Assembly (NCBI RefSeq): GCF_003952365.1
Contig: NZ_CP034443.1
Span: forward strand, 2,597,001-2,661,000
Source of the DNA: Mesorhizobium sp. M9A.F.Ca.ET.002.03.1.2
Lineage (GTDB): Bacteria > Pseudomonadota > Alphaproteobacteria > Rhizobiales > Rhizobiaceae
DNA length: 64,000 nt
Direction of reading: 5' to 3'
In this document: positions 15,695 through 57,808 of the stretch, in pieces
How the letters are laid out: every line of letters begins with the position of its first letter
How positions within the stretch are numbered: position 1 is the stretch's first letter
Program-made: the position numbers and the translations under genes
Notes under the pieces: generated by a model
What the model saw: only the letters and a program-made list of their open reading frames with translations
What the model was told of the DNA's origin: nothing
Databases searched by the model: none

Positions 15695-15700
15695 AATCCG

Positions 15701-33256: not shown

Positions 33257-34168
33257 CGGAGCGGCGGACACGGCGGCCGCGTCTCCCGCGCGCATGCGGT
33301 GCTGCGAACCCGCCGTCGCATTTTGTCGCAAAAGGCGGACTGGGCGCTCAGTCGCGACGGTTTTTTGGCCCTGACCGGCCGGGGTGGCGCGATGCCGGCG
33401 GCGGGACAAAAAGGCTGGGAAGGGCAGGGGGTGTTTGTCCCCAAAGCGGATACCAATGCGGCGATGGAGGTGCAGGAGCTGAATCCGCTGGCCCTAGAAT
33501 TTGCCGAGATCGATGCTGTCCTGGCGCGCTCGTCGAAGATTCTGAGCGGCGCCGACGTGTCTGCTCGAAAAGAGGAAACGTCACGACGTGACCGGCCGAA
33601 CCTGATCTACGATCTCGACTGGAATGAAGAAGAGCGGCTGGCCGAATGGCGGGATGTGATGGTCAGGACCCGCGATCTGCCGGTCATCCTGCGCGCCGCG
33701 GTCCTCCTCGAAGCCTGGTCGGACATCGAGGTGCTGCAGCATGCCACGTGGCTCGGGCCGCTGTTCGTCGCCGCGCTGCTGCGGCAGGAGGGTCTTGCCG
33801 CCAATCATCTCGTCAGCCTGCAGCTCGGCGCCAAGAACATTCCACGAGAGCGGCGGCGGGCGCGCAATCGCTCGGATCGGTTGTTGGCTTTTGTCGATGC
33901 CATCCACGAGGCAGCGCTCGCCGGGTTGAAAGAGCATGACCGGCTGGTGATGGCAAAAAGCCAGATGGATCGGCGGCTGCGGGAGCGGCGCGTCAGTTCA
34001 AAACTTTCCGACCTGATCGAGCTGGTGATGTCGCGGCCACTTGTCTCGACTGGCATGGTTCAGAAGGGGCTAAAAGTGACAAAACAGGGGGCGCTGAATC
34101 TGGTCGGTGAGCTTGGGCTGCGCGAGATGACGGGTAGGGGAAGGTTTCGCGCGTGGGGCATCGTGTGA
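33257..34168 (+). pseudogene. RHE_PE00001-family (DUF1612 plus helix-turn-helix) protein, N-terminally truncated
   Basis: The frame is open from a stop at 33254 and enters family sequence at RAHAVLRTRRRIL. It continues through LDWNEEERLAEWRDVM, LPVILRAAVLLEAWSDIEVL, ARNRSDRLLAFVDAIHEAAL and ends with the helix-turn-helix KLSDLIELVMSRPLVSTGMV, then TKQGALNLVGELGLREMTGR. Family members are about 370-400 aa; the first 80-100 residues are missing or scrambled here. Such genes are common on rhizobial plasmids and islands; their function is unknown. A piece of another copy lies at 50262. Confidence 0.8.
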
Positions 34169-38889: not shown

Positions 38890-41589
38890 CTAGGTGCTCC
38901 AGCCTTGAACAAAGTCACTTTGAAGGGAGCCGATCTTCTTAGGCAACGCGCTTCCGACGCATGTAAGCCCGAGATAGGTCGCGGCACGGGTTGCGCCCAC
39001 ATAGAGAAATTTGTCGAACAGCTCGGGGCGCAGTGTCGCCAAGGTGTCGATGCCAACAAAAAACACGGCTTCAAATTCCAGGCCTTTGATGTGCTGAACA
39101 TCGAAAATCCTGATGTCGCTGTCCTGCCCAACAGACTGGCCTTTGTAGCACGCGATCACGTTGAGATTCTGATCTGCAAGCGCAGTTTTCAATCTATCGG
39201 CAAGTGGCCCAACTTCCGCCTCGTCATTCACCAGGATTGCGACGGAAGGGAGGGGCTTCGTCAACCGCTCGATCTCAATGATGCGAGCGGCAAGCCACGA
39301 TACGGTCTCATCACGCCCAGTGAGGTCAACGCCCAGGACTGGAGCCCAACCGTCGTTCTCGACGTTTTTAGGGAGAACCGCTTCGACAGTCTCGCCGGAA
39401 CACAGACGGACAATCTCCGATGCCAAGCGATTGAGCTGCCGCGTGTGACGGTATGAAACCTGGATCGGCTTGAGGTCGATTTTGGGGAAAGCCCAACGCA
39501 TCTCGTCGGCACTCCTGCTTCCCCAACTTGTTATCCTCTGATTGAAATCGCCGCAGGCAAAAAATGACTGAATAGCCGGATTGCTGAGTGCGCCCATACA
39601 GGCAAGCGTTATCGGCGAAAAATCTGTTGCCTCATCGACCATGATCTGATTGCGAACGACGCTCTGAAAGTCCTTTAGAATGCCGTAAGCCGGCTGATCG
39701 ATATTGCGTCGAACTGTGCGGTCCTGGACCAGGCTCGACGCCGTACGCATCGTACACAACAACAGGATATCCACCTCTTGAGGGTCGACATCACTCACGG
39801 GAATAGGAGCTGCGACATACCAGGCACCTTCCGACTGGCGCAGACGCCGGAACCGACGATACCTTGCCGGTATGCCGTTCAAGTATCTCCGGATAGGATT
39901 GGTGAACTTTCGGAGCGCCGTCTGGATTTGCAGGCTCTCGCCTATCGCACGGAGCTCGTCCTCGGATAAAGTGCGGTCGCCTATCCATTCCGCAATACGG
40001 CCAGATCGCGTGGTTCGGCCCAATGTACGTCGACCAAAGCGCGCCCGGGCCTGGCTGCGCAGATTTCGCATATAGGCTGCCGCAGTTGCCGCCATGCGCG
40101 GACGAGGTGCCTGGTTCTGGACATCTTCGTCCTCGTCGCCGTCTTGCTCGTCATTGTCGTCGTCGGGCGTATTGAGCCCGTCGATAAATGCCGCCAGGCC
40201 TTCGAGAAATTTTCGGTCCTGATTGACCTGGGTATTGAGGCGCCGCCGCAACGCGGTGTCGGTTTCTTCCCTCATGCTGGAGAGGAAACCTTCAACGTCA
40301 GAGGAAACGCTCACCAGTTCCAGTAAGGCGCGAGGAAGCGAAATGGTAGGCGCTTCCGCGACGGCTTCTCTAAGCCTCCGCCCGAGGCGCGCGGTTTCCG
40401 AGTTTCCATTCTTTTCAAGGAGGTCGGCTGCACCGCCTAAATCCTCCCAGTAGTCGCCGGCCTGCCAGCTTACAAAATCCTCATACCAAGCTGTTTGCCT
40501 GTTGAGCACGTCAGGAAGGACATAGGATTCACCTTCCTTCATGATGAAAGGTCCGCCGCCGTCAGAAGCTTTGAGGATGCGAAACCTGTTTCGCGCCAGG
40601 CCTTGCCGAAAGCTTGACCATGTCGCGATCTTCTGGTCGGGCGCAGCAATGTTTTCGCGCGCGAAGGCCTCCTTGAGATACTGCTTGAGCAGGTCCGTGG
40701 GAGTGAACATCAGCCAACTGTGAGAGTGATCCACGGCATTGTCGGCACTGCTGTTGTCGGTCAAGCGCCGTTCATCGTCATCAAGATAGATACGATCGAC
40801 CTTCTGTCCCAAACGCCGGATCAAGGTCGTGGTCTTGCCCGTGCCGGGCGGTCCTATAATCAGCAACTGAGTGTTGAGGGGCAACCGGAAAATCTCGTCC
40901 TGATAGCGATCCAGGATCGGTTGGTCACGCAGGCCCATCTTCGTGACGACACTGCGCCGGATGCCTTCAATGATGTTGGTTGCTTGCTCATCGATAGCCA
41001 AAATACTGTCGAGGATGGAGCTATCTTCCCCGACGGCAATATGCACGGCGAGTGCATCGAGCATGGAGATGACGGTAATGGGCCCGTAGGATTCGCCCTC
41101 CAGAATGGAGTTACGCGAGTCCCACTGGCCCTGGCGCTGATGAGGATGAAGGATCGCCTTCTCGATGATCTCGACAGACTGAACGCCACCAGGGGTTCGG
41201 ATATCGAAATCGTCGCCCACATCCAAGGACGCCAGCCGGCCCATCAACGAATTGCGTCCAGCGAAGCGTTTGTCTCCGCCGGGTCTTCCTGAAGCCGTTC
41301 CACGGCAGATGTAATAGATGACGATCTTTCCATCGTCCTGGCGTGCTACCACCCTGGCGATGGCCGGTTCTTTGGCGAGCAGTTCGAGAGCACGGCGGTT
41401 TGCGCTGTCGACGTTGCCCAGGGCCTTGACGGCTTCGCCTGACGTAAAGGTGTTCACGCTGGCGAGCGCCGTCGGGCCGGTGGAGTAGGGCTCGCCAAGC
41501 GCCGAACGTGCGTCCTTGGAAATTCTCTCGAAAACGTCGAGGCTTTCGCTCGAAACCCGTTCGATCTGATCCTGGTAGTTCGTGACCAT
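38890..41589 (-). CDS. UvrD/REP-like superfamily 1 helicase with a large N-terminal extension
   Basis: 899 aa from the ATG at 41589, for which GGGAG is properly spaced; an ATG two codons earlier is too close. Walker A is LLIIGPPGTGKTTTLIRRLG near residue 250. The later motifs are NQIMVDEATDFSPITLACMG (DEAT in place of DEAQ), FACGDFNQRIT, QVSYRHTRQLNRLA, IFDVQHIKGLEFEAVFF and FLYVGATRAATYLGLTCVG. An acidic, low-complexity linker (DDDNDEQDGDEDED) lies near 485. The first 230 residues have no motif I know. Such ATPases unwind or translocate on DNA. Immediately upstream on the same strand is a relic of an Argonaute gene, suggesting that the two once formed one defence operon. It appears intact. 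Confidence 0.9.
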   Translation of the reverse strand: MVTNYQDQIERVSSESLDVFERISKDARSALGEPYSTGPTALASVNTFTSGEAVKALGNVDSANRRALELLAKEPAIARVVARQDDGKIVIYYICRGTASGRPGGDKRFAGRNSLMGRLASLDVGDDFDIRTPGGVQSVEIIEKAILHPHQRQGQWDSRNSILEGESYGPITVISMLDALAVHIAVGEDSSILDSILAIDEQATNIIEGIRRSVVTKMGLRDQPILDRYQDEIFRLPLNTQLLIIGPPGTGKTTTLIRRLGQKVDRIYLDDDERRLTDNSSADNAVDHSHSWLMFTPTDLLKQYLKEAFARENIAAPDQKIATWSSFRQGLARNRFRILKASDGGGPFIMKEGESYVLPDVLNRQTAWYEDFVSWQAGDYWEDLGGAADLLEKNGNSETARLGRRLREAVAEAPTISLPRALLELVSVSSDVEGFLSSMREETDTALRRRLNTQVNQDRKFLEGLAAFIDGLNTPDDDNDEQDGDEDEDVQNQAPRPRMAATAAAYMRNLRSQARARFGRRTLGRTTRSGRIAEWIGDRTLSEDELRAIGESLQIQTALRKFTNPIRRYLNGIPARYRRFRRLRQSEGAWYVAAPIPVSDVDPQEVDILLLCTMRTASSLVQDRTVRRNIDQPAYGILKDFQSVVRNQIMVDEATDFSPITLACMGALSNPAIQSFFACGDFNQRITSWGSRSADEMRWAFPKIDLKPIQVSYRHTRQLNRLASEIVRLCSGETVEAVLPKNVENDGWAPVLGVDLTGRDETVSWLAARIIEIERLTKPLPSVAILVNDEAEVGPLADRLKTALADQNLNVIACYKGQSVGQDSDIRIFDVQHIKGLEFEAVFFVGIDTLATLRPELFDKFLYVGATRAATYLGLTCVGSALPKKIGSLQSDFVQGWST

Positions 41590-41724
41590 TCCCATCTCCC
41601 TGCCGATTGTTCTTATTCTTTAATTGGGCTGCTATGTGCAACCAAATACGGAAGCGAGAACCGTAAAATATTATATGGAAAGCTGCGCCCAGTGCCGCCT
41701 AACCTTTGCAGGCGTCATTGCTGG

Positions 41725-43488: not shown

Positions 43489-44402
43489 TTATTTCCCTTC
43501 CACTACATCCCTGAGTTCTTCCACCATGAGCATGGGTTTGCGGTGTAGCATCTGGTGACAGTTTGAGGAGACCGCCCGAAGGTCGCTCAATCGCGTCTTT
43601 TCGCCGGGCCGTATTTCTGCCACGGGCTTCGTATGGTGGCATTCGATGAAGCCAATGCCGCGCTCCTTATAAGTTCTCTCGAAATCAAAGCCGCAAACCG
43701 TGCATGCGAATGAAGTCAGGCTCGCCTTGAAAGCGGCGACCAGTTGCGGCTTCCGTTCAATGGCCCAATGAAGCCTGAGCCTGCGTGCGCCTTCTTCTTC
43801 GGAACGCTCACCCTCTCTTCCACTAGCATCTGCTCCTAGCTTCGTGATCGCCCTGAACTGCTCTTCGGACAAGTTGTACGAAGTTACCATCCTTTGCCGG
43901 CCGGGCTCGAAAATGTTTGGCGGTATTGGTAGCGACTCCCGGAATACGACAATCCGATCTTTTGGGACCGCCCAAGCGAAAGTACACAAAATCGCTTCGG
44001 ATGGAGTTCTCTATCTGGGTAAGTGTTTGGTTCATGTATCGATGGGCAACCTGATTGATTTTGGCGAGTTCGAAAACATCAATCGCCATCTGCTCCACCG
44101 CTGAGGCTGACGGAGCGGCGGGTTTATCAAGTAATATGGCTCCGTCGTAATAGCCTGCCGCTCGCCACCCGCCAGCATCGAAGGTCGCTAGGACCAGGCC
44201 AAATCTCTGGCCCTCATATTTCTTGGCAGGAAGCGCTACCGTGTAGCCGACGACCTGTCCATCGATCGCGAAATCAATATTGAAATTCCAGTCCTCGTGC
44301 CCGAACCCGTGTTCATGAACGTAGCTGCCGACCCCCTTCTGGCTCAATCTGCCGCGTGACGGCTTCTGAATTGGGTGCGATCCTGTGTAGCTTGTATTCC
44401 AT
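43489..44402 (-). pseudogene. HNH endonuclease with two frameshifts
   Basis: The original start is the ATG at 44402, behind a strong GGAGGG. MEYKLHRIAPNSEAVTR is followed by a frameshift near 44350 into SQKGVGSYVHEHGFGHEDWN, a domain found in McrA-like restriction proteins. A second shift near 43980 (TTTCGCTTGG, one extra base) joins DFVYF to AWAVPKDRIVVFRE. The C-terminal HNH domain is complete: SFACTVCGFDFERTYKER, IECHHTKPVAEI and SNCHQMLHRKP. The intact protein would be about 300 aa and would probably cut modified or foreign DNA. Confidence 0.85.
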
Positions 44403-45223: not shown

Positions 45224-46063
45224 ATGGCTGGTGAAGAAGCTGCACCATGTCGCCATCGGGGGGCACCGCCGGAGGAGGTGGTAAATCGCGTTGCCGAAAT
45301 CGTCAGCGGCATCGCCGATGACCCGCAGTACCTTTATCAGCGAGGACTCTCGGCGGGCGAGTTTAGATTGGCCCTCCCTGCCGCGATCGAGAAGCTTCGC
45401 GGCAGCACGGCCGCCAGCAATGCCGATCGGCGTGACTTTCTGGGTATGATCTTCGATCATATGTTGGCTGTGGGCGCGATAGCCAGTGTGGTTCGCCCAG
45501 TCTACGGAAAGGATACGGTTTACCAACTGGCCGTGCCTGACATTGGTAACGTAGCCATCATCCAGAAGGGGTGTCCCGACGGCGCTCACAGCAGCGTTGC
45601 ATGGTCTGTTCCCTCATGGGCGGTCGAGACCTACCTTTGGTGGTTGTGCCCGAGTCTGGCCTCGGAACCCGGAGAACATGTTTTCAAAGGGGTCAACCGA
45701 CTCCGCCGTCGCTTTTTCTCGGATGCACCAGATACGCTTGATGGCATCATCTTCCACAATGACCTCTGCGGGTCAGACCTTCGACCGTGTCCGAAGATGG
45801 GCCGGGCAGTGGAGATTGGCGGAAACCGCATTCCTCCTCCGTGTATCTGGATCATGCCGGAGCGGGGCCAAGGACCTGACTTCAACTGGCACGGTCGCCG
45901 CCAACGGCGATTCCCGGCAGTTCTGCTCTCTTCGTTCAATGTCGATGCAGGCAATGCAAGTGTTTTGACCGGGTACATCGGGTTTCACCAAGGCGTCCGC
46001 GGCATCAGGACCACAGTCGCCTCCCGGTTTGGTCCGGGACGGTTGACCACCTTCAGGAGCTAA
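45224..46063 (+). CDS. Unrecognised protein, first gene of the ParB/SNF2/DUF3883 operon
   Basis: 279 aa, ATG behind GGGGGGATTA. I do not recognise the family. The N-terminal 90 residues are helical (EEVVNRVAEIVSGIADDPQY, then FRLALPAAIEKLRGSTAASN, FLGMIFDHMLAVGAIASVVR); the rest is beta-rich with VAIIQKGCPDGAHSSVAWSV and CIWIMPERGQGPDFNWHGRR. QKGCPDG and the acidic/basic residues around could form a nuclease site, but this is speculation. It has no membrane segment. The next gene starts 2 bases after its stop, so it belongs to a four-gene operon with a ParB-like protein, an SNF2 helicase and a nuclease-like protein. Confidence 0.8.
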   Translation: MAGEEAAPCRHRGAPPEEVVNRVAEIVSGIADDPQYLYQRGLSAGEFRLALPAAIEKLRGSTAASNADRRDFLGMIFDHMLAVGAIASVVRPVYGKDTVYQLAVPDIGNVAIIQKGCPDGAHSSVAWSVPSWAVETYLWWLCPSLASEPGEHVFKGVNRLRRRFFSDAPDTLDGIIFHNDLCGSDLRPCPKMGRAVEIGGNRIPPPCIWIMPERGQGPDFNWHGRRQRRFPAVLLSSFNVDAGNASVLTGYIGFHQGVRGIRTTVASRFGPGRLTTFRS

Positions 46064-46065
46064 AA

Positions 46066-47385
46066 ATGATGAACCCTGTGTTAGATCAGGAACGAGTCCA
46101 ACACCTTGTCGCGCGCCAGAGCTCGTCGAAACGACGCGCGCTGCTGGCCGCCTGGTCGCGGCCAGATCGCGAACTGCCGCTGGTGGACCTGGAGGTGACG
46201 TGGGTGCGGCTCTCCACTCTGAACCACCGGACTAAGGCTGAACAGATGCGAGAGATTGAGACGAAGGGGCGCCCAGACCTGTTTTCGGCGGACCCGATGG
46301 GGTCGGAAGCACAAGCGGCACAGCTTCGTATCCTGAAATCTCAGCCGGGCTTCTATGATCTCAAGGCTGATCTGAGAGAACGTGGTCAGCAGGAGCCGGC
46401 CGTAGCTACTGCGGAGGGCGTTCTTGTAAACGGCAACCGTAGGTCCGCTGCGCTTCGTAGCCTCTATTTAGACAATCAGCATGCGCCTTCTCGATATGTC
46501 CGCTGCCTCGTCCTTCCGGCCGATGCGACCATGGATGAACTGGTCGATCTCGAGACTGAGCTGCAGATCGCACGTGACTTCCGCGAAGACTATTCGTGGG
46601 TCAATGAAGCGCTCTTGATCGAGGAACTGTTCAACCGCGAAGCCCAGAACTGGGATCGAGTCGCGGCGAGGATGCACAAGGATGTACCCAAGGTTCGGGC
46701 GCAGTATGAAAAGCTGCAGCAGCTGCATCAGCTGGTGGCACTGTCAGACGGCACTCGCCACCACGCCGACTTTGATGAGAACGAGTCGGCTTTTGAGGAA
46801 CTCACTAGGCACATCCGAACTAAGCCTAAGGCTGAGGCCAATTCCGTTCGGGGCGCCTACTTCCTTGGCACGCTGACCGGGGTCAACTACCGCGATCTTC
46901 GCCACCTTCAGCGGCCGGATGCCGCCGCACTAGTCAGGCAGGAATTGGAATCGGATCCGACAATCGCACCGCTGCTTTGTGCCATCAGGCATGATGTGCC
47001 CAACAATGGCGGCGATGTTCTCGATGACGCCCTCGGTGATGCAGCACAGGAAGAGGACCTTTCCGATATCCTCGCCTTCTTCGCGCGCAAGCGCAGCGAA
47101 GAGATAGTGACTCTCGCAGATGGCAAGAGCGCTGTCGTATCCGATCTAATTGCTTCCGTAGGGGCTGCCATCGCCGTCGCGGCACAGGAAGCCGATGAGG
47201 ATTCTAAGGACGCAAAGGCGCTCGTGGCTCCATTGAGCCGTCTTGCCGCCGCCAAGGAGCAGGTTGGCCGCGCAGCTGCTGCGCTTGAACGGGCGCGTAG
47301 CTTTGACGGATGGAATGAAGCCGACTTCCAAACCAAGGTGGCCGCGCTCAAGGCCGAAGTGAGCAAGCTCGAGGCACGCGGATGA
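46066..47385 (+). CDS. ParB/sulfiredoxin-fold protein
   Basis: 439 aa behind AGGAGCTAAAA. The N-terminal half is a ParB-like domain: WVRLSTLNHRTKAEQMREIE, LRERGQQEPAVATAEGVLVN and GNRRSAALRSLYLD, the GNRR nucleotide-binding or nuclease motif. The middle (EDYSWVNEALLIEELFNREA, DVPKVRAQYEKLQQLHQLVA) resembles the helix-turn-helix and linker that follow ParB domains. The C-terminal 120 residues are helical and likely coiled coil. ParB-fold proteins can be CTPase clamps or nucleases; in defence operons they usually load on DNA. The stop overlaps the helicase start (ATGA). Confidence 0.85.
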   Translation: MMNPVLDQERVQHLVARQSSSKRRALLAAWSRPDRELPLVDLEVTWVRLSTLNHRTKAEQMREIETKGRPDLFSADPMGSEAQAAQLRILKSQPGFYDLKADLRERGQQEPAVATAEGVLVNGNRRSAALRSLYLDNQHAPSRYVRCLVLPADATMDELVDLETELQIARDFREDYSWVNEALLIEELFNREAQNWDRVAARMHKDVPKVRAQYEKLQQLHQLVALSDGTRHHADFDENESAFEELTRHIRTKPKAEANSVRGAYFLGTLTGVNYRDLRHLQRPDAAALVRQELESDPTIAPLLCAIRHDVPNNGGDVLDDALGDAAQEEDLSDILAFFARKRSEEIVTLADGKSAVVSDLIASVGAAIAVAAQEADEDSKDAKALVAPLSRLAAAKEQVGRAAAALERARSFDGWNEADFQTKVAALKAEVSKLEARG

Positions 47386-49274
47386 TCCGTGCCGAGCTCT
47401 ATCGGCAGGACCGTCCGACGGTCGTCGTCGATCGCTTGGACGATACGAATCCTGGTGCCTGGGCCCGGCTGCAGGAAGCCTTTGCACGCGGCATCCTCAC
47501 TGGATCGGCACGGCAGTCAGTGGTGCACCCGGATGTGTTCATGGCGGAACTCGATGTCCTGCGCGACATTCGGGCAGTGTTTGCAGAGCGGGTTGAGTTA
47601 GGACCGACCCTCACATCACAGTTGCGATTAATGGCTGATGATCGCCGTGCCCGTTCCGTGGCGATCGAAGCCGGTGAGGCAAGCGAAACCGAGCTTGAGG
47701 CCCTCGCGGCCGAGCTTGAGGCCGCCGGGTTCAAAAGGAATTTGAAGCCCTTTCAACTGAGAAATCTCGCCCGCCTCATGCGTCTGCCGCATGCTGCGGA
47801 CTTTTCGGTTCCTGGAGCGGGTAAGACGACGGTGGCGCTGGCGGCATTTGCTTTGGGTCGCGCTCGAGGAAGTATCGACCGTCTTATGGTCGTTGCGCCA
47901 ATCGCCGCCTTCGGAGCCTGGGATGAGGATGCAGTCGCTTGCTTCAAAAAGCCACCGCGCGTTGTAATCTTTGGGGGTCCCGAAACAATTATCCCGCAAG
48001 ACACGGAGATCCTGCTCTCAAATTACAATCGCGTCGCAAGCGATTATGACATTATCAGAGCCTTCGTGGCGAATGGGGCTACCAAGGTTGTGCTCGACGA
48101 AGCCCATCGTGTGAAGCGCGGCGCTTCGGGGGTGCATGGTCGTGCTGTGTTGGATTTGGCCTATGCGGCTCATCGCCGAGACGTGCTAACTGGTACGCCG
48201 GCCCCCCAAGGCGCGCACGATCTAGTGGCTCTGGTGAAGTTCCTATACCCGGGCCAGGATCGCCAGATTCTTCCGAGGTCTGCTTACATCGAAAGGCTGG
48301 GGCGCGATCCGAATGTTCTCGGCGAGACTCACGCAGCGATTACGCGGTACTTCGTTCGAACTCCCAAGAGCGAGCTGGAGCTGCCTCCCATAACGTTCGA
48401 GGTTATCCGCAGACAAATGGGACCCATTCAAAGCGCGATCTATGATACGCTCGTGGGTCGCTACCGCGCCACTTTTTCGCTTCCCGACCGCGGTCGGCAC
48501 GAGATGCAGCGCCTTGGCCGCATAGTAATGTACCTGCTCGAGGCCGCGACAAACCCCATGCTGTTAACGGCCGGTTCGGATGAGAGTGATGATCCAGGAT
48601 TCCTTCACCCGCCGCTCGAGTTGTCGAGCAGCGAGCCGCTCGTCAACCTGCTACAAAGCTACAAAAACTTTGAGACGCCGTGGAAATACCAACAAGTGCT
48701 TTCCATTGTAGCGGCAGCAGCCGAACGCGGCGAGAAGGTCCTGATCTGGTCCAACTTCGTGCGCAACCTAAAGGTGTTGGCTCGAATGCTTGCGCAATAT
48801 CAGCCGGCAATAGTGCATGGAGGGGTTCCCTCCGACGACGGTGCTCCCCCTGGCGACCTAACGCGCGAGAATGAATTTCGGCGGTTCCGACATGATGCCC
48901 ACTGCGTTGCGCTCCTGGCAAATCCTGCAGCCTGCGGCGAGGGCATCAGCCTCCATCACTGGTGTCACAACGCTGTGTTCCTGGATAGGACGTTCAATGC
49001 GGGCCACTTCCTGCAGAGCCAGGATCGCATTCACAGGCTTGGGCTGTCGGCGGATGTAAAAACGCGCTTCACGCTACTCATCAGCTCGAACACCATCGAC
49101 AATACGGTTGACGGAAGGCTTCACGACAAGGTCAGGGCGCTTTCCCGTTTGATGGATGATCCCGGCCTAGTCCAGATCTCACTACCTTCTCCAGATGAGG
49201 GCGAAGGCGGTGCACCTGCGTTCGAGGATGATTGGCAGGCCGTAGCCGCACACGTCGGAACCATAGATGTATGA
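47382..49274 (+). CDS. SNF2-type superfamily 2 helicase
   Basis: 630 aa, translationally coupled to the ParB-like gene. After a helical N-terminus, motif I is FSVPGAGKTTVALAAFALGR near residue 145, motif Ia VVAPIAAFGAWDED, motif II VVLDEAHRVKRGASGVHGRA (DEAH) and motif III VLTGTPAPQGAHDLV. The second RecA domain has KVLIWSNFVRNLKVLARMLA (motif IV), NPAACGEGISLHHWCHNAVF (motif V) and QSQDRIHRLG (motif VI, QxxxRxxR). SNF2 enzymes translocate on double-stranded DNA and remodel bound protein. Helicases of this kind are core parts of several phage-defence systems. It appears intact. Confidence 0.93.
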   Translation: MIRAELYRQDRPTVVVDRLDDTNPGAWARLQEAFARGILTGSARQSVVHPDVFMAELDVLRDIRAVFAERVELGPTLTSQLRLMADDRRARSVAIEAGEASETELEALAAELEAAGFKRNLKPFQLRNLARLMRLPHAADFSVPGAGKTTVALAAFALGRARGSIDRLMVVAPIAAFGAWDEDAVACFKKPPRVVIFGGPETIIPQDTEILLSNYNRVASDYDIIRAFVANGATKVVLDEAHRVKRGASGVHGRAVLDLAYAAHRRDVLTGTPAPQGAHDLVALVKFLYPGQDRQILPRSAYIERLGRDPNVLGETHAAITRYFVRTPKSELELPPITFEVIRRQMGPIQSAIYDTLVGRYRATFSLPDRGRHEMQRLGRIVMYLLEAATNPMLLTAGSDESDDPGFLHPPLELSSSEPLVNLLQSYKNFETPWKYQQVLSIVAAAAERGEKVLIWSNFVRNLKVLARMLAQYQPAIVHGGVPSDDGAPPGDLTRENEFRRFRHDAHCVALLANPAACGEGISLHHWCHNAVFLDRTFNAGHFLQSQDRIHRLGLSADVKTRFTLLISSNTIDNTVDGRLHDKVRALSRLMDDPGLVQISLPSPDEGEGGAPAFEDDWQAVAAHVGTIDV

Positions 49275-49389
49275 GTTGCCAAGTCGCGGACGCTGTCATG
49301 CTGCCTTCCTGCTGGCCTACAGTGCGCGGCTGAGGCCTTCAGGTGACTTCAACTCTTGGGTGATATCCGCGAGCGGGAAGTCGACCATC

Positions 49390-50175
49390 ATGGCCGCCTC
49401 AACTGACGTCCTAGGTACCGCGAGGCTGCTCGTAGATATCAACCTCGCTAGCATAACCGATGTCGTCGCGATCAATCCCGTACTTGCCGCTTTCGACAGC
49501 AAGGCTGATCGACATAGTCTGTTGGGCATTGCCCGTCTCTTGCTGCAGAGATGCCCTCTGGCGTGGATTGGAGCTGCAATTGTCGACGGGCGTCTGGCCC
49601 CAGAATTCATTCCCGACAGTGACCTAGAAGCCCTTTCCTGGCTTGGGCCGGACCTGGAACCGCTGCTCGTCGAAATACATCATCGGCTAACACGTGCGTC
49701 CTTTGACGAGCGCAGAAAGATGCTCGGCAATGCTGGCGAACTCGCAATCATGTCGGCCCTTCGTTATGAGAGATACTCACCGGTGCATGTGGCGCTCCTC
49801 TCTGATTGGTACGGCTACGACATTGAGAACCGTCGGGCCTCTGCTACCGAGCGCTTGGAGGTGAAGGCGTGCGTAAGAGCCACCGCAGACCGTGTATTCG
49901 TGTCGCGCAACGAATTCGACAAAGCAGCAAAGTTCGGGTCCGAATGGCGACTCATTCAGGTGATATTTTCGTCAAGTGTAATGGTGGAACGAACCATCAT
50001 AGCCGCTCATGTAGAGGAGGTCCGTGAACTTAGCAGCGGCGCGCTCCAAGCGTTGGCTCCTGATCCATCGCCGACGTTCCAATGGACCGATTCCGCTGAA
50101 TTTCGCCCGACCCCCGATATGTGGATTCCAAGCGCACTGCGCGTGGATAACACCTTCTCACTGGAGTGTAGGTAA
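49390..50175 (+). CDS. DUF3883-like (PD-(D/E)xK) nuclease-type protein
   Basis: 261 aa from ATG 49390; an ATG at 49267 would add 41 residues of poor character and overlap the helicase. The C-terminal half has the DUF3883 pattern: LGNAGELAIMSALRYE (Glu), WYGYDIENRRASATERLEVK (Asp in GYDI, then LEVKA as the E-x-K), FVSRNEFDKAAKFGSEWRLI and QVIF. This is a restriction-endonuclease-fold domain found in defence operons and in plant NOV proteins. The N-terminal 120 residues are helical (ADRHSLLGIARLLLQRCPLA). It is probably the effector or DNA-end processing part of the operon. Confidence 0.82.
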   Translation: MAASTDVLGTARLLVDINLASITDVVAINPVLAAFDSKADRHSLLGIARLLLQRCPLAWIGAAIVDGRLAPEFIPDSDLEALSWLGPDLEPLLVEIHHRLTRASFDERRKMLGNAGELAIMSALRYERYSPVHVALLSDWYGYDIENRRASATERLEVKACVRATADRVFVSRNEFDKAAKFGSEWRLIQVIFSSSVMVERTIIAAHVEEVRELSSGALQALAPDPSPTFQWTDSAEFRPTPDMWIPSALRVDNTFSLECR

Positions 50176-50261: not shown

Positions 50262-50500
50262 GTGCCTAGCAGTGTGATAGCCCGGGAGCAGATGGAGCGA
50301 CGCATCGAGCTCAAACTGCCGCGGCTGATCGAGTTGCTGTTGTCGCGGCCGCTGGTCTCCACCACCATGATCCAGAAGGAGCTCAAGGTGTCGCGACAGG
50401 GTGCCAATTTCGTTGCCGAGTTCACCCTGTCAACCTGCGCGAAATCACGGGAGGGCGCGATATCGGGCGTAGGGGTCGTTTGGCTATTCAGGTCGGATTT
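50262..50500 (+). pseudogene. C-terminal fragment of an RHE_PE00001-family protein
   Basis: MERRIELKLPRLIELLLSRP, then LVSTTMIQKELKVSRQGANF, matches the helix-turn-helix end of the protein at 33257 (SDLIELVMSRPLVSTGMVQK). The frame drifts after VAEF and the family ending is lost. It directly follows the DUF3883 gene and is evidence of another, deleted copy of this plasmid gene. Confidence 0.75.
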
Positions 50501-50941
50501 CATTGGTCTCCGTGGGCGCGAGATCGAGTGTCACGTGGCAACGTAGTAATCCTTGCTTTGCCTTGCCGGCGGCACGGCATGGGCCGTGATCAGACCGTCT
50601 CAGATGAATGAAGACCTTTTTTCGCTTTGGGCCAAGGTTTGCCGAAGACTGTCAGGAAAAGGGCATCTGTCGCATTCATATCGCCATGAGGCAGTTTTCG
50701 GCATCCGTCACCGTGAGCTCTACGCCAACTTTCGGATGCATTATCTGATTCCGCGCTGTGATCGCTGCGGAAAGTAAGGGCCACCATGCCCGATTTGTGT
50801 CGAATTGTTTGTGCAAAAAACGCCACAATAGAAATGCAGCCTTTCATCAATTGAACGGTATTTATGACGCAGTAAGATTATTGACGAACATGTTAGATCT
50901 TGAAACCGAGGTAAGAAAGGGAGTCAGCCACTCCGGGATTT
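50501..50941. other. Stretch without a recognisable gene before vsr
   Basis: 440 bases with only short open frames and no motif. It lies downstream of both the relic and the convergently oriented vsr gene. Confidence 0.35.
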
Positions 50942-51358
50942 TTAAGAAGCATGCTTGCCCAGGAAGTCGGCGAGTCGGCGAGCAAGGCGGTCCGCGTCTT
51001 TCATCTCGCATTCCCAGATCACTAGGACCCGCCATCCGTCGGCCTCGATCGCTGCGACGCTCGCGGCATCGCGCTCGACGTTCCTCGCGATCTTCGCCGA
51101 CCAGTATTCCCGGTTCTTTTTCGGCATACGCGCGCCGCGCTTGCACCCATGTCCGTGCCAGAAGCACCCATGTACGAAGATGACGGCCTGTCGCCGGGAG
51201 AACACCAAGTCGGGCTTCCCGGGCAAGTCCTTGCGGTGCAGCCTGAAGCGATAGCCGAGTGCGTGCGCGAGGCGGCGGACGGCCATCTCCGGTTTTGTGC
51301 CGGTTGACCGGACCAAGGACATTTGTCGGCTTCTGGCAGGATCAACGTTCGCAGTCAT
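50942..51358 (-). CDS. vsr: Very short patch repair (Vsr) endonuclease
   Basis: 138 aa, complete. The fold and active site are clear: RSRQMSLVRSTGTKPEMAVR, then LHRKDLPGKPDLVFSRRQAV (catalytic Asp) and FVHGCFWHGHGCKRGARMP (zinc and His residues), ending KIARNVERDAASVAAIEADG and WECEM. Vsr nicks next to T:G mismatches created by deamination of 5-methylcytosine and so protects methylated sites from mutation. It is divergent from the methyltransferase gene 97 bases away; the two probably share a promoter region. Confidence 0.96.
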   Translation of the reverse strand: MTANVDPARSRQMSLVRSTGTKPEMAVRRLAHALGYRFRLHRKDLPGKPDLVFSRRQAVIFVHGCFWHGHGCKRGARMPKKNREYWSAKIARNVERDAASVAAIEADGWRVLVIWECEMKDADRLARRLADFLGKHAS

Positions 51359-51454
51359 GGAAAATTCATGGTGAGCATGTTACGGATGAGAACAAACCGT
51401 AAACCATTTTCGGCGTGGGGTATGCTAGCATTACGCGCGAATCACGGGGAGATC

Positions 51455-52657
51455 ATGCGGACATTTTATGAGTTTTTCGCCGGCGGAGGGATGGCGCGTG
51501 CCGGACTTGGTCCAGAGTGGCAGTGTGCCTTCGCTAACGATTTCGATGTAAAAAAAGGCCTGACGTATCAGGTCAACTGGGGGACCGGCGGCGAGCTGAC
51601 TATCGGTGATATTCGCCAAGTCAAGATCGACAAGCTCCCCGGCACTGCCGACTTAGCTTGGGGGTCATTCCCCTGTCAGGATCTGTCGCTTGCCGGAGGC
51701 GGCGCTGGATTGAAAGGCGAGCGTTCGGGAACCTTCTATCCGTTCTGGACGATTATGAACGGCCTGATCGCAGAGGCCCGCGGTCCGAAGATCATCGCGC
51801 TGGAAAACGTTAACGGGACTCTGACCAGCCACGGAGGCGCTGACTTCGTGGCGATCGCCGAGACTTTCGCGAAAGCGGGCTACCGCTATGGCGCTATGGT
51901 CATCGACGCAAAACTTTTTGTCCCGCAGAGTCGCCCAAGGCTCTTCGTCATCGGCGTCCGGGGGGATTTCGAGGTGCACGAGGCCATGCTATCGCCGGAG
52001 CCGGTGGCGCCCTTCCATTCCCGCGGCCTTCAAAACGCGGTCGCAAGGATTCCTGCAAAGGCGCGGAAGCGGTGGCTGTGGTGGAATCTTCCTTCTCCGC
52101 CTGTCCGCAACACATGCTTCGCCGACCTCGTCGAAGAAAATCCCTCGAGCGTCGAATGGCACACCACGGAACAGACCGCGCGGCTGATCGCCCAGATGTC
52201 TCCGGTGAATATCGCGAAGCTTGAGGCCGCGAAGCGGGCCGGGCGCCGCATGGTGGGGACCGTCTACAAGCGGACGAGACCGCAGAATCCTAACGGGAAA
52301 GCTGTAAGAGCGGAAGTGCGCTTCGACGAGATCGCGGGCTGCCTGCGCACACCGACGGGAGGGTCGTCCCGGCAGACGATCATGGTCGTGGACGGCGCCC
52401 GTGTCCGGTCGCGCTTGATCAGCGCGAGGGAGACCGCACGGCTCATGGGACTTCCGGACGACTACAAGTTGCCTCGCGCATACAATGAAGGCTACCACCT
52501 TACAGGGGACGGGGTGGCAGTTCCGGTCGTTCGCTTTCTGGCGCAGCACCTGTTCGAGCCGGTCCTCCGAGCGACCGAGGGACAACATGGCGAAACTCCC
52601 GAACAGCACAACAGACAGCACGAAAACACCGCCGCTCGAAACGGACGAGCTGCGTAA
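51455..52657 (+). CDS. dcm: DNA (cytosine-5) methyltransferase
   Basis: 400 aa from ATG 51455, selected because GGGGAG precedes it and motif I follows at once (FYEFFAGGGMARAGLG). Motif IV is LAWGSFPCQDLSLAGGGAGL with the catalytic Cys, motif VI IIALENVNG and motif VIII FVPQSRPRLFVIGVRG. The target-recognition region follows, and the end has SARETARLMGLPDDYKLP with motifs IX and X. It methylates cytosine within an unknown recognition sequence. The downstream nuclease starts 71 bases inside its end, and Vsr is divergent, a normal restriction-modification layout. Confidence 0.95.
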   Translation: MRTFYEFFAGGGMARAGLGPEWQCAFANDFDVKKGLTYQVNWGTGGELTIGDIRQVKIDKLPGTADLAWGSFPCQDLSLAGGGAGLKGERSGTFYPFWTIMNGLIAEARGPKIIALENVNGTLTSHGGADFVAIAETFAKAGYRYGAMVIDAKLFVPQSRPRLFVIGVRGDFEVHEAMLSPEPVAPFHSRGLQNAVARIPAKARKRWLWWNLPSPPVRNTCFADLVEENPSSVEWHTTEQTARLIAQMSPVNIAKLEAAKRAGRRMVGTVYKRTRPQNPNGKAVRAEVRFDEIAGCLRTPTGGSSRQTIMVVDGARVRSRLISARETARLMGLPDDYKLPRAYNEGYHLTGDGVAVPVVRFLAQHLFEPVLRATEGQHGETPEQHNRQHENTAARNGRAA

Positions 52658-53366
52658 GGCCATTCGGAAATTCTTCCGCGAAACTCTCTACGACGACCCC
52701 TCGGGTGAGAAGCGTCCCGTCGGCAGCTATCGCTGGGGAGTATACGCGTTCTACGACTACGACGGGGAGCCGATCTACGTCGGCCAGACCAAGGAGAAGG
52801 TTTCCGGCCGCGTCGGGCGCCACCTCACGAACCAGCGCACCGACGCTGTGGCGATGTCGGTGTTGGACCCTTTTGAGGTGGCGGAGATACAGGTCTGGCC
52901 ACTGCCGCAGTTCGAGGCCGTGGGGTCGAAGCACTCTGACTTTAAAACGGCGAATGCGCACCTAAACGCGCTCGAGCACCTTGTCTTCACTCGGCTACGC
53001 AACGAGAGCAAGTTCAAGGCGATCCTGAATGAGAAGGACCCGCCGGCGCCGACTGTAGAAATCACCGAGCCGCCTTCCATGCGTGGTTCGATTGTCTCCG
53101 ACCGGATCCAGGAGTTGCGCGGCCATCCGGACACCCGTTTGGCACGTCGGGCGCTCATCGTGTCCAAGCTGTCGCAGGTCATCTCCGAACGCGAGGTAAA
53201 GATGGGCCTTCGACGTGTGCTCGTGACCCAGACTAGGCGCATGAACTGGCTGGCGGAAAGACGCTTCGAGAAACTCGGCGGCGAGAGCCTAGTAGAGGAA
53301 GGAGCCGAGGACGAAGAGGACACAAAGGGAGACTTGGACGGGGACGGAACTGCGATTCCACACTGA
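52587..53366 (+). CDS. GIY-YIG nuclease, probable restriction endonuclease partner
   Basis: 259 aa; ATG at 52587 behind GAGGG, overlapping the methyltransferase by 71 bases. The GIY-YIG core spans roughly residues 48-110: RWGVYAFYDYDGEPIYVGQT contains the two motif halves (GVY and YVG), followed by the Arg in VSGRVGRHL. Further blocks are HLNALEHLVFTRLRNESKFK (Glu and Asn region). The C-terminal third is helical and acidic. GIY-YIG restriction enzymes (the Eco29kI group) cut double-stranded DNA. Extreme overlap with the methyltransferase argues for a cognate pair. Cleavage activity is inferred. Confidence 0.85.
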   Translation: MAKLPNSTTDSTKTPPLETDELRKAIRKFFRETLYDDPSGEKRPVGSYRWGVYAFYDYDGEPIYVGQTKEKVSGRVGRHLTNQRTDAVAMSVLDPFEVAEIQVWPLPQFEAVGSKHSDFKTANAHLNALEHLVFTRLRNESKFKAILNEKDPPAPTVEITEPPSMRGSIVSDRIQELRGHPDTRLARRALIVSKLSQVISEREVKMGLRRVLVTQTRRMNWLAERRFEKLGGESLVEEGAEDEEDTKGDLDGDGTAIPH

Positions 53367-54439: not shown

Positions 54440-56306
54440 CTAACCCAGCTTAGGGAAAAGACCGTATCTGCCTTCACCGTCCACGCCGGTAAAGGTCTCA
54501 ATTTTGGCTAGAGGCCGAATTCCGTTCGGGGGGTCGGAATTCTCAATTATGATGATCTGCGCCAGGTCTTTCAGGCCAGCGAGATGTTCATAGAAGTGCG
54601 TCGCAAGGCTTGTTTTCTTAAGTTCTTCCTCGTCGGCTGAAAGCTCGCCGTGCTTGCTCTTCATCGGCTCGCGATATGTGAGAAGCGGTGTGTCTAGAAC
54701 CAAAAAGCCGGGATGTGGCAAATCTCGGCGCCGGCAGAAGAGAAGCACCGCAACATTGAATGCGGCATGCAAGATGGCCCGGACGCCTTTTCCGTTCGCC
54801 GACCTGGGCTTACCTCCGATGGTAACATCGTTCGTTTCAATATCGAACTGCGCGCGGTCGGCTTGTGGAAATTTCCAAGCCGTCAATACTTCTCGCACGA
54901 CCTCTCCGAATGTGTAGGCAATTGTGCTATCCACACCCACGTCGAGTTTGTCTGCCTTGCCCTCAGAAACCTTCTTCGATCTGGGATCGACGAACCACGA
55001 GACGGTCCCTTCTCTCGTAAAGGTCTTCCGCTCGATCAAGCCGTGCCTTGGTGGCAGAGAGTTCTTCGTAGAGGTGACGTGCAGCGATTTCTTTGGGCCG
55101 AGCGTCCTCTATTCTTTTCCCAGCACGATCAATCTCGTCCGACAACTTTGCAGACCTGCTTCGCAAGCCCGTTGCCTCGGCCTCAAGCGATGTTATCGTC
55201 TGACCTAGTTCACGCTGCTCAATCTGAATCTTCCTCACCTCGGCGGCAGCAGCCCTGTGAGCAAGGGCGATCTCATCTGCGGCATGATTGTGCCGCTGGA
55301 CCGCAGGCGGCGCCCCGCAGACCGGACAATCGCGTTCCGCCATAGTGACCAGTATGAATCCGCCCTCCTCCAAAGCCTGTAGCCGGGCAATGTCGGACTT
55401 GTAGACCTCACTAAGACGGCCGAAGCGCTGCAGCGTCACTTCGAGTTCCGTAAATCGAGGAACCAGGTCGCGTTGGGTTTCCACAAGCTGCCGACGCTCG
55501 GTCACAAGGCTGTCAAGATTGTTTTGAGCCTGACGCAAGTTGTCATGCAGGGAGCCTAGGGATCCTTCGATCTTTCTGATCTGTTCGGTGAGCTCCTCAC
55601 GCGTCGGCCCACCCTCGCCAATCTCCTCATCAAGTTGAGCGATCATCTCATCGACCAACTCAACCTTTGCAGTTCGGGCGACACTTTTCTCCTTTTTACC
55701 TGCAACGGTAACAGCCGCGCCATCGTCGTTGCCGGTTAGAAGCAGACGGAACAAGTTCCGTTCAAACGTCCGCTGACTGGGAATTCCAGAATAGAGGACG
55801 GGACTTCTCTCGGAAATGATGTCTTCCTCCGACACAACGACGTACGGAGATAGCAAGCGGATCGAGAGAGTATCTTTTTCCGCGTTCGCGCTTTTGACGA
55901 TTACCTTGTTCGCAAGGCCAAGCGTCTCCAGGAGGAAATATGAAACGTTGTCGCTTCGCTTGGCGTCGAATTTACCTTGAAGGATGGCCCCCGCCGCAGA
56001 GGGTGTATTCTTGATCATCCCATCGTGCACACGGAACGCGCCGCCCTTTGTAGCCCGATAAAGTGTGACGTCTCGGGCGCTAGAGAGCGTCAGTCCTAGC
56101 CAAACAGCATCGTAGTGCGTGATTTCCTCAGTTTTGGGCAATTCCTTGGTCGCTGCCAGCATGAAGTTTAGCGCCTTGGTCGTAAACGACTTGCCGGTGT
56201 TGGAGGCTCCGTAAACTATGTTGAGGCCATCGTTGAACGACAGTTCAGCCGGCGCGACTGATGGTCCTGTGAAAACCAGGTGACGAATCGTGATGCCGCT
56301 CGCCAT
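54440..56306 (-). pseudogene. ABC-three-component system ATPase (SMC/Rad50-like), frameshifted
   Basis: The first 447 codons show Walker A IVYGASNTGKSF near residue 32, a Q-region, a coiled coil (EELTEQIRKIEGSLGSLHDN), a CxxC hook-like turn (ERDCPVCGAPP) and the returning coiled coil. The frame breaks near 54975 (GAAGAAGGTTTC, one extra G) and continues as SEGKADKLDVGVDS, then VRAILHAAFNVAVLLF, PGFLVLDTPLLTYREP (Walker B and D-loop) and IIIIENSDPP. The complete protein would be about 620 aa. This is the ABC ATPase of ABC-3C systems, predicted to sense foreign DNA structures. Its start overlaps the stop of the middle component (TAATG). Confidence 0.85.
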
Positions 56307-56821
56307 TATGCGCTACTGCCGGTGGGGGCGTGATCTGCGCGGAATTCGGCGGTCCAGCGGCCGATCTTGGCCTCAATCACAGCTTTGATTTCGACCGTCG
56401 CCATTCCAGCAAAGCGCTGGGCAATCCAGCGGGCACGCTCTTTGAGTGCCATCGAATAGTCGGACTGAAGCAGGTCTAGGTAGGTTGGCGCATCTTCGCT
56501 GGCGACAAACGTGACGCCAAGGTCTGTTTCCACGACGTCAACGAGATGCACCTGCTGCATGATGCGCAAGCTCTTCTCCACCAGCTGACGACGAACGAAG
56601 AGTTCACCGGTGCGATTCGGCAAGTCCGGATGGAGACTGGGGGGCACGTCCTCTCCATCGAGGTCAGCCGTATGAACGACCAAGTGGTCCAGCCAAGTCA
56701 TTTCGATCAGATCACACTGACGCGGATAAAATGCTTCCAACAGCATCACCGCTCGGATGCCGGTCTCGAGGGTGCTGTTGAAAGGATGACTCGGTTGCCG
56801 TCCCTCGCTGATCACTTCCAC
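56306..56821 (-). CDS. ABC-three-component system middle component (MC2 type)
   Basis: 171 aa, intact. The sequence PFNSTLETGIRAVMLLEAFY, then DLIEMTWLDHLVVHTADLDG, HPDLPNRTGELFVRRQLVEK, SLRIMQQVHLVDVVETDLGV and LQSDYSMALKERARWIAQRF, matches the middle-component family 2 of ABC-3C systems. It is a small helical adaptor, with a winged-helix-like arrangement, that couples ATPase and effector. It overlaps both neighbours by a few bases, so the three genes are one operon. Confidence 0.85.
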   Translation of the reverse strand: MEVISEGRQPSHPFNSTLETGIRAVMLLEAFYPRQCDLIEMTWLDHLVVHTADLDGEDVPPSLHPDLPNRTGELFVRRQLVEKSLRIMQQVHLVDVVETDLGVTFVASEDAPTYLDLLQSDYSMALKERARWIAQRFAGMATVEIKAVIEAKIGRWTAEFRADHAPTGSSA

Positions 56822-57808
56822 GGAAGCCGCCCCTCATTCGCGAAATGATGACAGGTACCTTGTTTGACCTGCACCCGCGCGTGGCGTCGTAACACCCCGG
56901 AAGCTTGGATGGTAGCCGCCTGCGACAGCACCCTTGTCACACGATCCAGGCCGTCACCGTTGGACTCCGTGTAGACATCCGAAACCCCGTGATAAACCTC
57001 ATCCTTGAACGTCGAAAGATAGTCCGGAGGGGTCGAGTCACGATAATAACGATCGAACTCGGCCGCGTCGAAGTACCGAGTTCGCTGATCACGCAAATGG
57101 GTGCCCCACCGAGCGTCCTGTAGAACCGCAGCCGGGTTCTCGAACTTTGATCCGGCGCGCTCGCCATAAATATCGACCAGCTGACTGATGTAAGCAGATT
57201 CGTGATCTTGCAGCTGGTCAGGTGCCACGCCAAGCGGCGAAGGTCCCGGATCATCGTTGAACCATTTCACGAGCACAGTCTTCGCGTGGCTGTCATCGAC
57301 GAGACGGACGGCGTCCAGAGAATACCTGGGTAAAGTCGAAAGCATTTATTGCCGAGCGGATCTCCTCGCTCAAAGGGACGGTTGCATTCTCGACCAACTC
57401 CCCGGCTATGTCGGTGGCCCACCGATCGAGGAAGGCCTGCCTGAAGCGTTCCGGATGTGCAATGAAGGCCTGAACGTTGCGCACAACCCCTCGAGGGGCG
57501 ACGAACGTATAGGAGCGCGGCAGCGTGTACTCACCCTTCGCTGCGTGCATGAAGATTTTGCCCAGCTCAACAAACGCCGCCTTTTCCGATAGACGGGCAC
57601 CGAGTTGCTTGCACTGGAAGTTGTCCCAAGGGCCTTCATGCCGCTGATCTGTGACGTAAGCCACGACATCGCGTCCCATATCGCCGGTGCCGGACCAACG
57701 CTCGTGTGAGTTGTAGTCCTTCGTACGGTTCGCAAGCCAATCGTTGACAAAGGCTTCGAGACGTTCGTTGGGCAATGCGGTGAGCTGGACGGCGTAGTTT
57801 GGGCGCAA
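56812..57808 (-). pseudogene. ABC-three-component system effector with a nuclease-like domain, frameshifted
   Basis: N-terminal domain: AVQLTALPNERLEAFVNDWL, then GTGDMGRDVVAYVTDQRHEG and PWDNFQCKQLGARLSEKAAF. GRDV and QCK look like the Asp and Q-x-K of an Mrr-type restriction-endonuclease fold. The frame breaks near 57325: SAINAFDFTQV is followed in another frame by YSLDAVRLVDDSHAKTVLVK and the C-terminal domain typical of ABC-3C effectors (FDRYYRDSTPPDYLSTFKDE). The only in-frame start is TTG at 57808, just after a stop, so the 5' end may also be damaged. The intact protein would have about 330 aa. Confidence 0.8.

Follow-up and report, generated by a model that had tools for sequence, protein, structure and literature searches.

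We analysed a four-gene operon at positions 45224 to 50175 of a 64,000-nucleotide stretch of Mesorhizobium sp. M9A.F.Ca.ET.002.03.1.2 (contig NZ_CP034443.1, positions 2,597,001 to 2,661,000), which is referred to as the window. The operon encodes a protein that we call X, a ParB-like protein, an SNF2-family ATPase and a protein with a NOV_C domain, and it lies beside genes for a Vsr endonuclease, a C5-cytosine DNA methyltransferase and a GIY-YIG nuclease. The sequence evidence leads us to favour, with modest confidence, the reading that the window holds a complete restriction-modification (R-M) locus, probably ATP-dependent, in which a dead type II restriction enzyme would serve as the reader, combined with a motor and a separate nuclease. 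A broader and more tentative proposal, on which we are almost evenly divided, is that such loci form a separate ATP-dependent R-M class that arose several times, with a type II endonuclease silenced and docked as a pure reader on a shared ParB-SNF2 engine, and with either NOV_C or an SNF2-fused PLD-like domain as the nuclease.

Judged from sequence, the operon is a single four-gene unit of defence-type proteins. All four frames are open on the forward strand, with a gap of 2 nucleotides after the first and overlaps of 4 and 8 nucleotides thereafter, which bears out the tight coupling of intact genes claimed by the initial annotation. Profile scans with Pfam, PADLOC and NCBIfam covered ten proteins of the window, and homologues were accepted at E <= 1e-3. 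The features of the operon are as follows.

45224..46063, + strand: X, 279 amino acids, a type II restriction-endonuclease relative without the catalytic acids and the proposed site reader (PADLOC REase_II PDLC03501, 5.3e-19).
45518..45568, + strand: residues 99-115 of X, the place of the lost D...ExK site, with V99, I113, Q114 and K115 in the window (coordinates computed from the frame start; based on the column counts of X against its relative R1, given below).
46066..47385, + strand: ParB-like protein with a GNRR motif, 439 amino acids, a proposed clamp or loader (based on homologues, an annotated relative and the motif).
47382..49274, + strand: SNF2-family ATPase motor, 630 amino acids (PF00176, 1.5e-16; PF00271, Helicase_C, 4e-6; motifs SVPGAGKT, DEAH and QSQDRIHRLG).
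49267..50175, + strand: NOV_C/DUF3883 protein, 302 amino acids, the proposed cutting nuclease (NOV_C, PF13020, 4.5e-7; nuclease motif).

X had no match in Pfam or NCBIfam, in keeping with its earlier description as uncharacterised, which has to be amended in one respect, as the PADLOC profile points to a diverged restriction-endonuclease relative. A second protein of the X family, R1, was found directly after the methyltransferase in two loci that also carry X (L007 and L011; fetched loci bear L numbers) and matched PDLC03501 at 3.3e-137. R1 had 3067 homologues, in which X proteins may be included, and a search of plasmid records with R1 gave 18 matches, 16 of them R1 and two of them X. In seven loci (L030-L034, L036, L037) the methyltransferase and R1 were present with no ParB or X in the fetched stretches. 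We aligned 120 X and 120 R1 proteins from among the matches listed. In the columns of X positions 99 and 113-115, all 120 R1 proteins had Asp and Glu-Leu-Lys, respectively. All 120 X proteins had V or I at 99 and I or V at 113, and all of them kept Lys115. The two groups were on opposite sides of the midpoint root; mean identity was 59% among X proteins, 70% among R1 proteins and 26% from one group to the other (26.8% over 280 amino acids for X against the R1 of L011). Because the acids are lost in all listed X proteins, the groups split at the root and identity within X is 59%, X looks like an old, conserved protein without catalytic acids and not like a decaying copy.

The AlphaFold model of X (predicted local distance difference test, pLDDT, 82.7; predicted template-modelling score, pTM, 0.73) has strands at residues 99-104 and 108-115, followed by a strand at 135-141, a helix at 149-164 and a strand at 174-178. 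By eye, this order appears to be the one expected for a PD-(D/E)XK core. X therefore shares with type II restriction endonucleases the homology and a PD-(D/E)XK-like core in the model, and lacks the catalytic D...(D/E)xK acids. A sequence search of the PDB with X gave no useful match (four at E 0.12-0.53).

The remaining three products agree with their initial assignments. The ParB-like identity of the second is consistent with its GNRR motif and with an annotated relative called ParB/RepB/Spo0J; its Pfam match was sub-threshold (0.14) and NCBIfam and PADLOC gave none. The ParB model had a pLDDT of 86.3, and PDB sequence searches with ParB and with the GIY-YIG protein gave no useful match. The third product is an SNF2 protein by PF00176 and Helicase_C, with the ATPase domain, Walker A and motif VI all present in the window protein; Walker A was found at 42 of 42 loci examined, several of which are near-duplicates. 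PF13020 of the fourth product is the domain of proteins annotated DUF3883, and its PD-(D/E)XK nuclease signature, D...ExK, is intact. The motif G[YF]D...E[VI]K was present in 13/13 aligned NOV_C proteins and at 30 of 31 loci, and the one protein without it is truncated at the end of its contig. DUF3883 is described as a novel restriction-endonuclease (REase) domain that occurs in fusion with SNF2 in operons of R-M systems (PMC3710099). With its frames open and its motor and nuclease motifs intact, current use of the operon is plausible.

Protein searches found 428 homologues of X and 464 of ParB, of which 120 each were listed, and the same four-gene order recurs, so the operon is not a chance arrangement. 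Examination of gene neighbourhoods, the check proposed with the initial annotation, placed homologues of the four genes together and not scattered. Among the matches listed, 43 of the 103 X contigs of at least 3 kb were equal in size to a listed ParB contig, which is indicative only. X was directly upstream of ParB in 13 fetched loci (L002-L012, L016, L081), including the window's own genome (L016) and near copies (L002, L003, L009). SNF2 came next in all 13 and NOV_C in 12, L016 ending before the NOV_C position. In L003 only the first 51 residues of NOV_C are present, near the contig end, and in L012 the gene is in two frames. In L009, from Mesorhizobium mediterraneum, NOV_C is broken by an annotated IS481 transposase gene (15346-16293), and X, ParB and SNF2 stay open. 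The ParB of the operon shares 100% identity with its counterpart in Mesorhizobium sp. M00.F.Ca.ET.216.01.1.1 (L002) and 99% with the one in M. mediterraneum, whose copy of the operon sits on a conjugative plasmid; the location in the window genome is chromosomal (a single 6.4-Mb contig).

When ParB was searched against samples of 385, 397 and 398 genomes, 13 distinct genomes besides its own were matched, all of them distantly, at 27-46% identity. SNF2 adjoined ParB in nine of the 13 (L039-L042, L044-L046, L050, L051), and NOV_C came next in eight of these nine; in L042 the contig ends within NOV_C and leaves a fragment of it. SNF2 was not beside ParB in L043, L047 and L048, and L049 had no ParB frame. 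Since few genomes were matched, yet SNF2 and NOV_C mostly accompany ParB, the gene set is rare but coherent. From these gene orders, ParB-SNF2 is a conserved pair, often with a DUF3883/NOV_C protein next. The annotated phage collection held one relative only. Fifty-two Enterococcus plasmid records matched the ParB query, and on two such plasmids (L052, L054) ParB-SNF2 follows a protein of about 865 amino acids with helix-turn-helix (HTH)-like domains.

In other lineages, at least two unrelated endonucleases with lost catalytic residues stand beside related ParB-SNF2 engines, one BglII-like and one resembling the C-terminal domain of Sau3AI, and a third, BanI-like, has an altered site. BglII-like readers, in frames of 159-182 amino acids, lie between an N4/N6 methyltransferase and ParB in L015, L040, L046, L050 and L082-L086. 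In 9/9 of them V takes the place of the Asp and Q that of the Glu, with L015, L050, L085 and L086 nearly identical, and the order methyltransferase-reader-ParB-SNF2-NOV_C was seen in BglII-like loci as in X loci. PF09195 proteins from other loci kept D and E/D in 19 of 19 readable cases (loci were obtained for 20 of 36 matches, 20 were extracted, and the unreadable L072 was dropped).

The third gene of L014, after SNF2, encodes a separate protein homologous to the C-terminal domain of Sau3AI (PDB 2reu and 7xm0; 3.4e-42 to 7xm0), and a 512-amino-acid neighbour in L053 starts with the same half. Neither protein contains the ELK that the complete Sau3AI of L055 has in its N-terminal half. Sau3AI itself offers a dead-endonuclease precedent, its C-terminal half having lost the catalytic residues and become an effector-binding or site-binding domain (PMC548270). 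The SNF2 proteins of L014 and L053 bear an N-terminal PLD-like domain (PF13091), possibly the nuclease in place of NOV_C.

BanI-like readers with weak homology (PF24447, 5.4e-8) precede ParB in a streptococcal phage and in viral contigs (L060, L087, L089, L090, L092). Stand-alone BanI proteins, compared for five of six matches after a 150-amino-acid piece (L103) was dropped, all had PFD or SFD and GxE; in the BanI-like readers, by comparison, the Asp is replaced by V or falls in a gap and the Glu is replaced by Asp, each in 5/5. A PDB sequence search with a BanI-like reader returned TAL-repeat, ribosomal and other unrelated chains only. Trees of SNF2 and of ParB, built for 39 loci, showed one clade each for the X, the BglII-like and the BanI-like loci, and the two Sau3AI-type loci fell among Firmicutes loci with other or unknown partners. 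The endonucleases were therefore probably taken up separately.

The METHYLTRANSFERASE matches the reader: the methyltransferase beside a recognised reader resembles the partner of the intact enzyme in the same family. The genes concerned in the window are the following.

50942..51358, - strand: Vsr mismatch endonuclease (TIGR00632, 9.6e-45; PF03852, 2.1e-28).
51323..52657, + strand: C5-cytosine DNA methyltransferase, the proposed cognate modification enzyme (PF00145, 1.3e-45; likeness to methyltransferases beside R1).
52587..53366, + strand: GIY-YIG nuclease, possibly the conventional partner restriction enzyme (PF01541, 2.4e-5, in a scan from 52485; homologues in L004, L006, L008 and the R1 loci L035-L038).

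The homology of the window methyltransferase begins near residue 45, and its true start is therefore probably downstream of the annotated 51323. It is 61-71% identical to the methyltransferases beside R1 in L030-L034 and L036-L038. The BanI-like readers also have a C5 enzyme as neighbour, and that of L060 is 40-43% identical to those beside 5/5 stand-alone BanI genes. The C5 enzyme next to the full-length Sau3AI of L055 shares 57% identity with that of L014 and 46% with that of L053. Between the X, BanI-like and Sau3AI groups, C5 enzymes share 25-34% over 111-319 residues. For five BglII-like loci, the N4 enzymes are 63-71% identical to those beside eight of the 20 PF09195 loci. The initial annotation had placed the Vsr/methyltransferase/GIY-YIG module beside the operon, where it indeed adjoins, and had overlooked that it is probably the modification side of the same locus. 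We take the Vsr and methyltransferase genes as probable companions of the operon because the window methyltransferase resembles the one beside the intact enzyme R1, and the whole module as a probable part of the locus because the order M-GIY-Vsr-X-ParB-SNF2-NOV_C was found in L004, L006 and L008. Vsr fits a C5 methyltransferase. GIY-YIG, which is also found with R1 (L035-L038), may cut at the same site as a conventional restriction enzyme.

In the mechanism that we propose, the methyltransferase, judging by its family, would mark host sites, and X, having lost its acids according to the alignment, would bind the same site when unmethylated as a sequence reader. ParB would be recruited at the X-bound site, probably as a nucleotide-switched clamp or loader, as its family suggests. 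SNF2, which carries the motor motifs, would move along or remodel the DNA with ATP, and NOV_C, with D...ExK intact, would cut. Type II restriction enzymes are among the best known sequence-specific proteins. If the proposal is true, they have repeatedly become the guide subunits of a nuclease that works with a motor, which would explain 'degenerate' restriction enzymes in databases and would make the target predictable as the site of the accompanying methyltransferase. It would also provide DUF3883, and a protein family that is annotated as partition ParB, with a function. The literature searched, which did not cover REBASE, most subscription journals or bioRxiv outside PMC, contained no description of the gene set.

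The points that weigh against this proposal are set out here together with the alternative explanations. Binding, loading, translocation, cutting and defence are all inferred, the activity of R1 is assumed from its motif, and the role of ParB as a CTPase clamp is a suggestion from family likeness. Among the 42 SNF2 proteins, the DEAH-type pattern was matched in 28 and the motif-VI pattern in 40, leaving 14 and two misses. The BanI-like group is ambiguous: a nearby earlier Asp (LDRAVSF) is conserved in 5/5 and the change from E to D is conservative, so the site is possibly altered but working. The Sau3AI methyltransferase comparison is with one locus, L055, which is itself a ParB-SNF2 locus. 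In L007 and L011, X has an R1 beside it.

An unlikely alternative, although the one that fares best, is that the dead endonuclease acts as a shield at unmethylated sites or as an expression regulator, with GIY-YIG or R1 cutting and ParB-SNF2-NOV_C independent of both. GIY-YIG or R1 is near the methyltransferase in several loci, and a dead enzyme with that specificity could act as a competitor at the sites. Such a shield or regulator fits poorly with the position of X directly upstream of ParB in the 13 fetched loci, and with the recurrence of unrelated endonuclease relatives before ParB in the BglII-like and BanI-like groups. Moreover, neither R1 nor GIY was recognised in the fetched stretches of L005 and L081, both of which have the methyltransferase and X.

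Somewhat less likely again is that ParB-SNF2-NOV_C is a general anti-phage effector that senses phage modification or stalled replication and co-travels with R-M genes. ParB-SNF2 was found with C5, N4/N6 and type III R-M genes, and 13 ParB-SNF2 loci (L013, L039, L041, L042, L044, L045, L051, L052, L054, L056-L059) had no match to six reader profiles (E below 0.5), so that a dead reader is not universal. Two of them, L058 and L059, follow type III Mod-Res genes, and Mod could be the reader there; in the other 11 a reader may be missing, be of an unrecognised kind or lie beyond the fetched stretch. L059 is an 8,755-bp Lacticaseibacillus paracasei plasmid with four annotated genes, for Mod, Res, ParB and SNF2. 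In L055 a full-length Sau3AI with an intact N-terminal DLGVSELK lies in a ParB-SNF2 locus, with insertion sequence (IS) genes between. Because of the reader-less loci and this complete Sau3AI, the ParB-SNF2 engine may be more general than the dead-reader rule. A general effector does not, however, predict by mere co-travel that the methyltransferase beside a recognised reader resembles the partner of the intact enzyme. The N4 enzymes make this a weak pairing test in the BglII-like group, being also 48-57% identical to those of the reader-less L041 and L051.

It is improbable that X still cuts DNA by means of unusual residues, in which case the operon would be an ordinary type II system to which helper proteins are added. 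K115 and D119 are conserved in both X and R1, as are six cysteines (9, 117, 142, 182, 189, 207; in 120/120 listed X and at least 119/120 listed R1), and the cysteines hint at a bound metal or cluster. Among the 120 X proteins listed, 113 have Asp at position 97, two residues from the lost acid, and in L055 a complete Sau3AI lies beside ParB-SNF2. An active X is nevertheless hard to reconcile with the change of both D...ExK acids to V or I in every listed X protein, with comparable losses in the BglII-like and Sau3AI-type readers, and with the presence of a separate protein bearing an intact nuclease motif. A plasmid partition or stability cassette, as the database annotation ParB/RepB/Spo0J, the plasmid location of some copies and the Exiguobacterium copies near ParA genes would have it, is very improbable, since the operon has no ParA gene, is chromosomal here and is coupled to SNF2, a nuclease and a methyltransferase.

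The surroundings of the operon contain the broken neighbours reported initially, two of which were confirmed. The HNH endonuclease gene at 43489-43989 (- strand) encodes 166 amino acids and is a shortened copy of a 317-amino-acid frame in M. mediterraneum. LmuB/ABC-three-component-like genes at 54440-57808 (- strand) are split into 54440-55039, 54963-56306, 56812-57345 and 57293-57808, and their counterparts on the M. mediterraneum plasmid are longer single genes (L009, 20959-22827 and 23333-24331). A UvrD/HelD-like helicase gene at 38890-41595 (- strand), about 3.6 kb before the operon, is an uninterrupted frame of 901 amino acids. The small HTH gene after the operon (50262-50546, + strand) resembles a stretch of a larger frame at 33257-34165; it was rejected as a fifth operon gene, recurring among the loci scanned only in L001 (the window's own genome), L002 and L009. 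A promoter and terminator scan was undecided, with five promoter-like sites against a shuffle mean of 3.0 and 15 terminator-like sites against 8.2, several of them within genes.

Among the ten window proteins, none of the named defence systems in the PADLOC, NCBIfam and Pfam libraries was matched, in line with the initial annotation, which had not recognised the set as a named system. The best PADLOC matches of the window SNF2 protein were ZorD (3e-18) and DpdE (1.1e-14), with DrmD weaker. DISARM consists of DrmA, DrmB and DrmC with a methyltransferase, Druantia type II of DruE, DruF and DruG with DruM, and Zorya of ZorA/ZorB with ZorC, D or E. The suggested likeness to DISARM did not hold up: SNF2 had weak DrmA and DrmD matches in the PADLOC and NCBIfam scans (24.1 bits for NCBIfam DrmD, whose cut-off is 610), the methyltransferase matched DrmMII at 2e-30, and neither DrmB nor DrmC was matched in the ten proteins. 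In the same set, Zorya was represented by the ZorD match alone, with no ZorA, B, C or E, and Dpd by DpdE alone, the other defining genes not being found. The window methyltransferase matched PADLOC DruM2 of Druantia type II at 3.8e-161, with no DruE, DruF or DruG match and a single weak DruC match (0.014) in a neighbour.

Closer likenesses are found among R-M systems. The SNF2-DUF3883 R-M operons of PMC3710099 share DUF3883 as an REase domain with SNF2; in the section cited they are linked to an AAA/HEPN protein, and neither a ParB-SNF2 pair nor a dead type II reader is described. In Lactococcus pLd8 orf33-34, a methylase has as its neighbour a PLD-SNF2 protein comparable to those of L014 and L053, and the passage cited mentions no ParB or dead endonuclease (PMC6098607). 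The C-terminal domain of Sau3AI is a dead endonuclease domain kept for site binding (PMC548270); in Sau3AI it is fused to the active half of one enzyme, whereas its homologue in L014 is a separate gene beside the motor. Type I and type III R-M systems also combine a reader, an ATP-driven motor and a nuclease, and ParB-SNF2 follows type III genes in L058 and L059. They differ from the proposed design, in which a dead type II enzyme would do the recognition, and the ten window proteins included no HsdS, HsdM or HsdR and no Mod or Res, ResIII being matched only as part of the SNF2 helicase core. Type II R-M systems (BglII, BanI, Sau3AI and PDLC03501/R1) have related methyltransferases and endonuclease proteins; the X, BglII-like and Sau3AI-C-like loci differ from them in the loss of the catalytic residues and in the addition of a motor, a ParB-like protein and a separate nuclease. 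We regard the set as a variant of restriction-modification, a new R-M type being the bolder reading.

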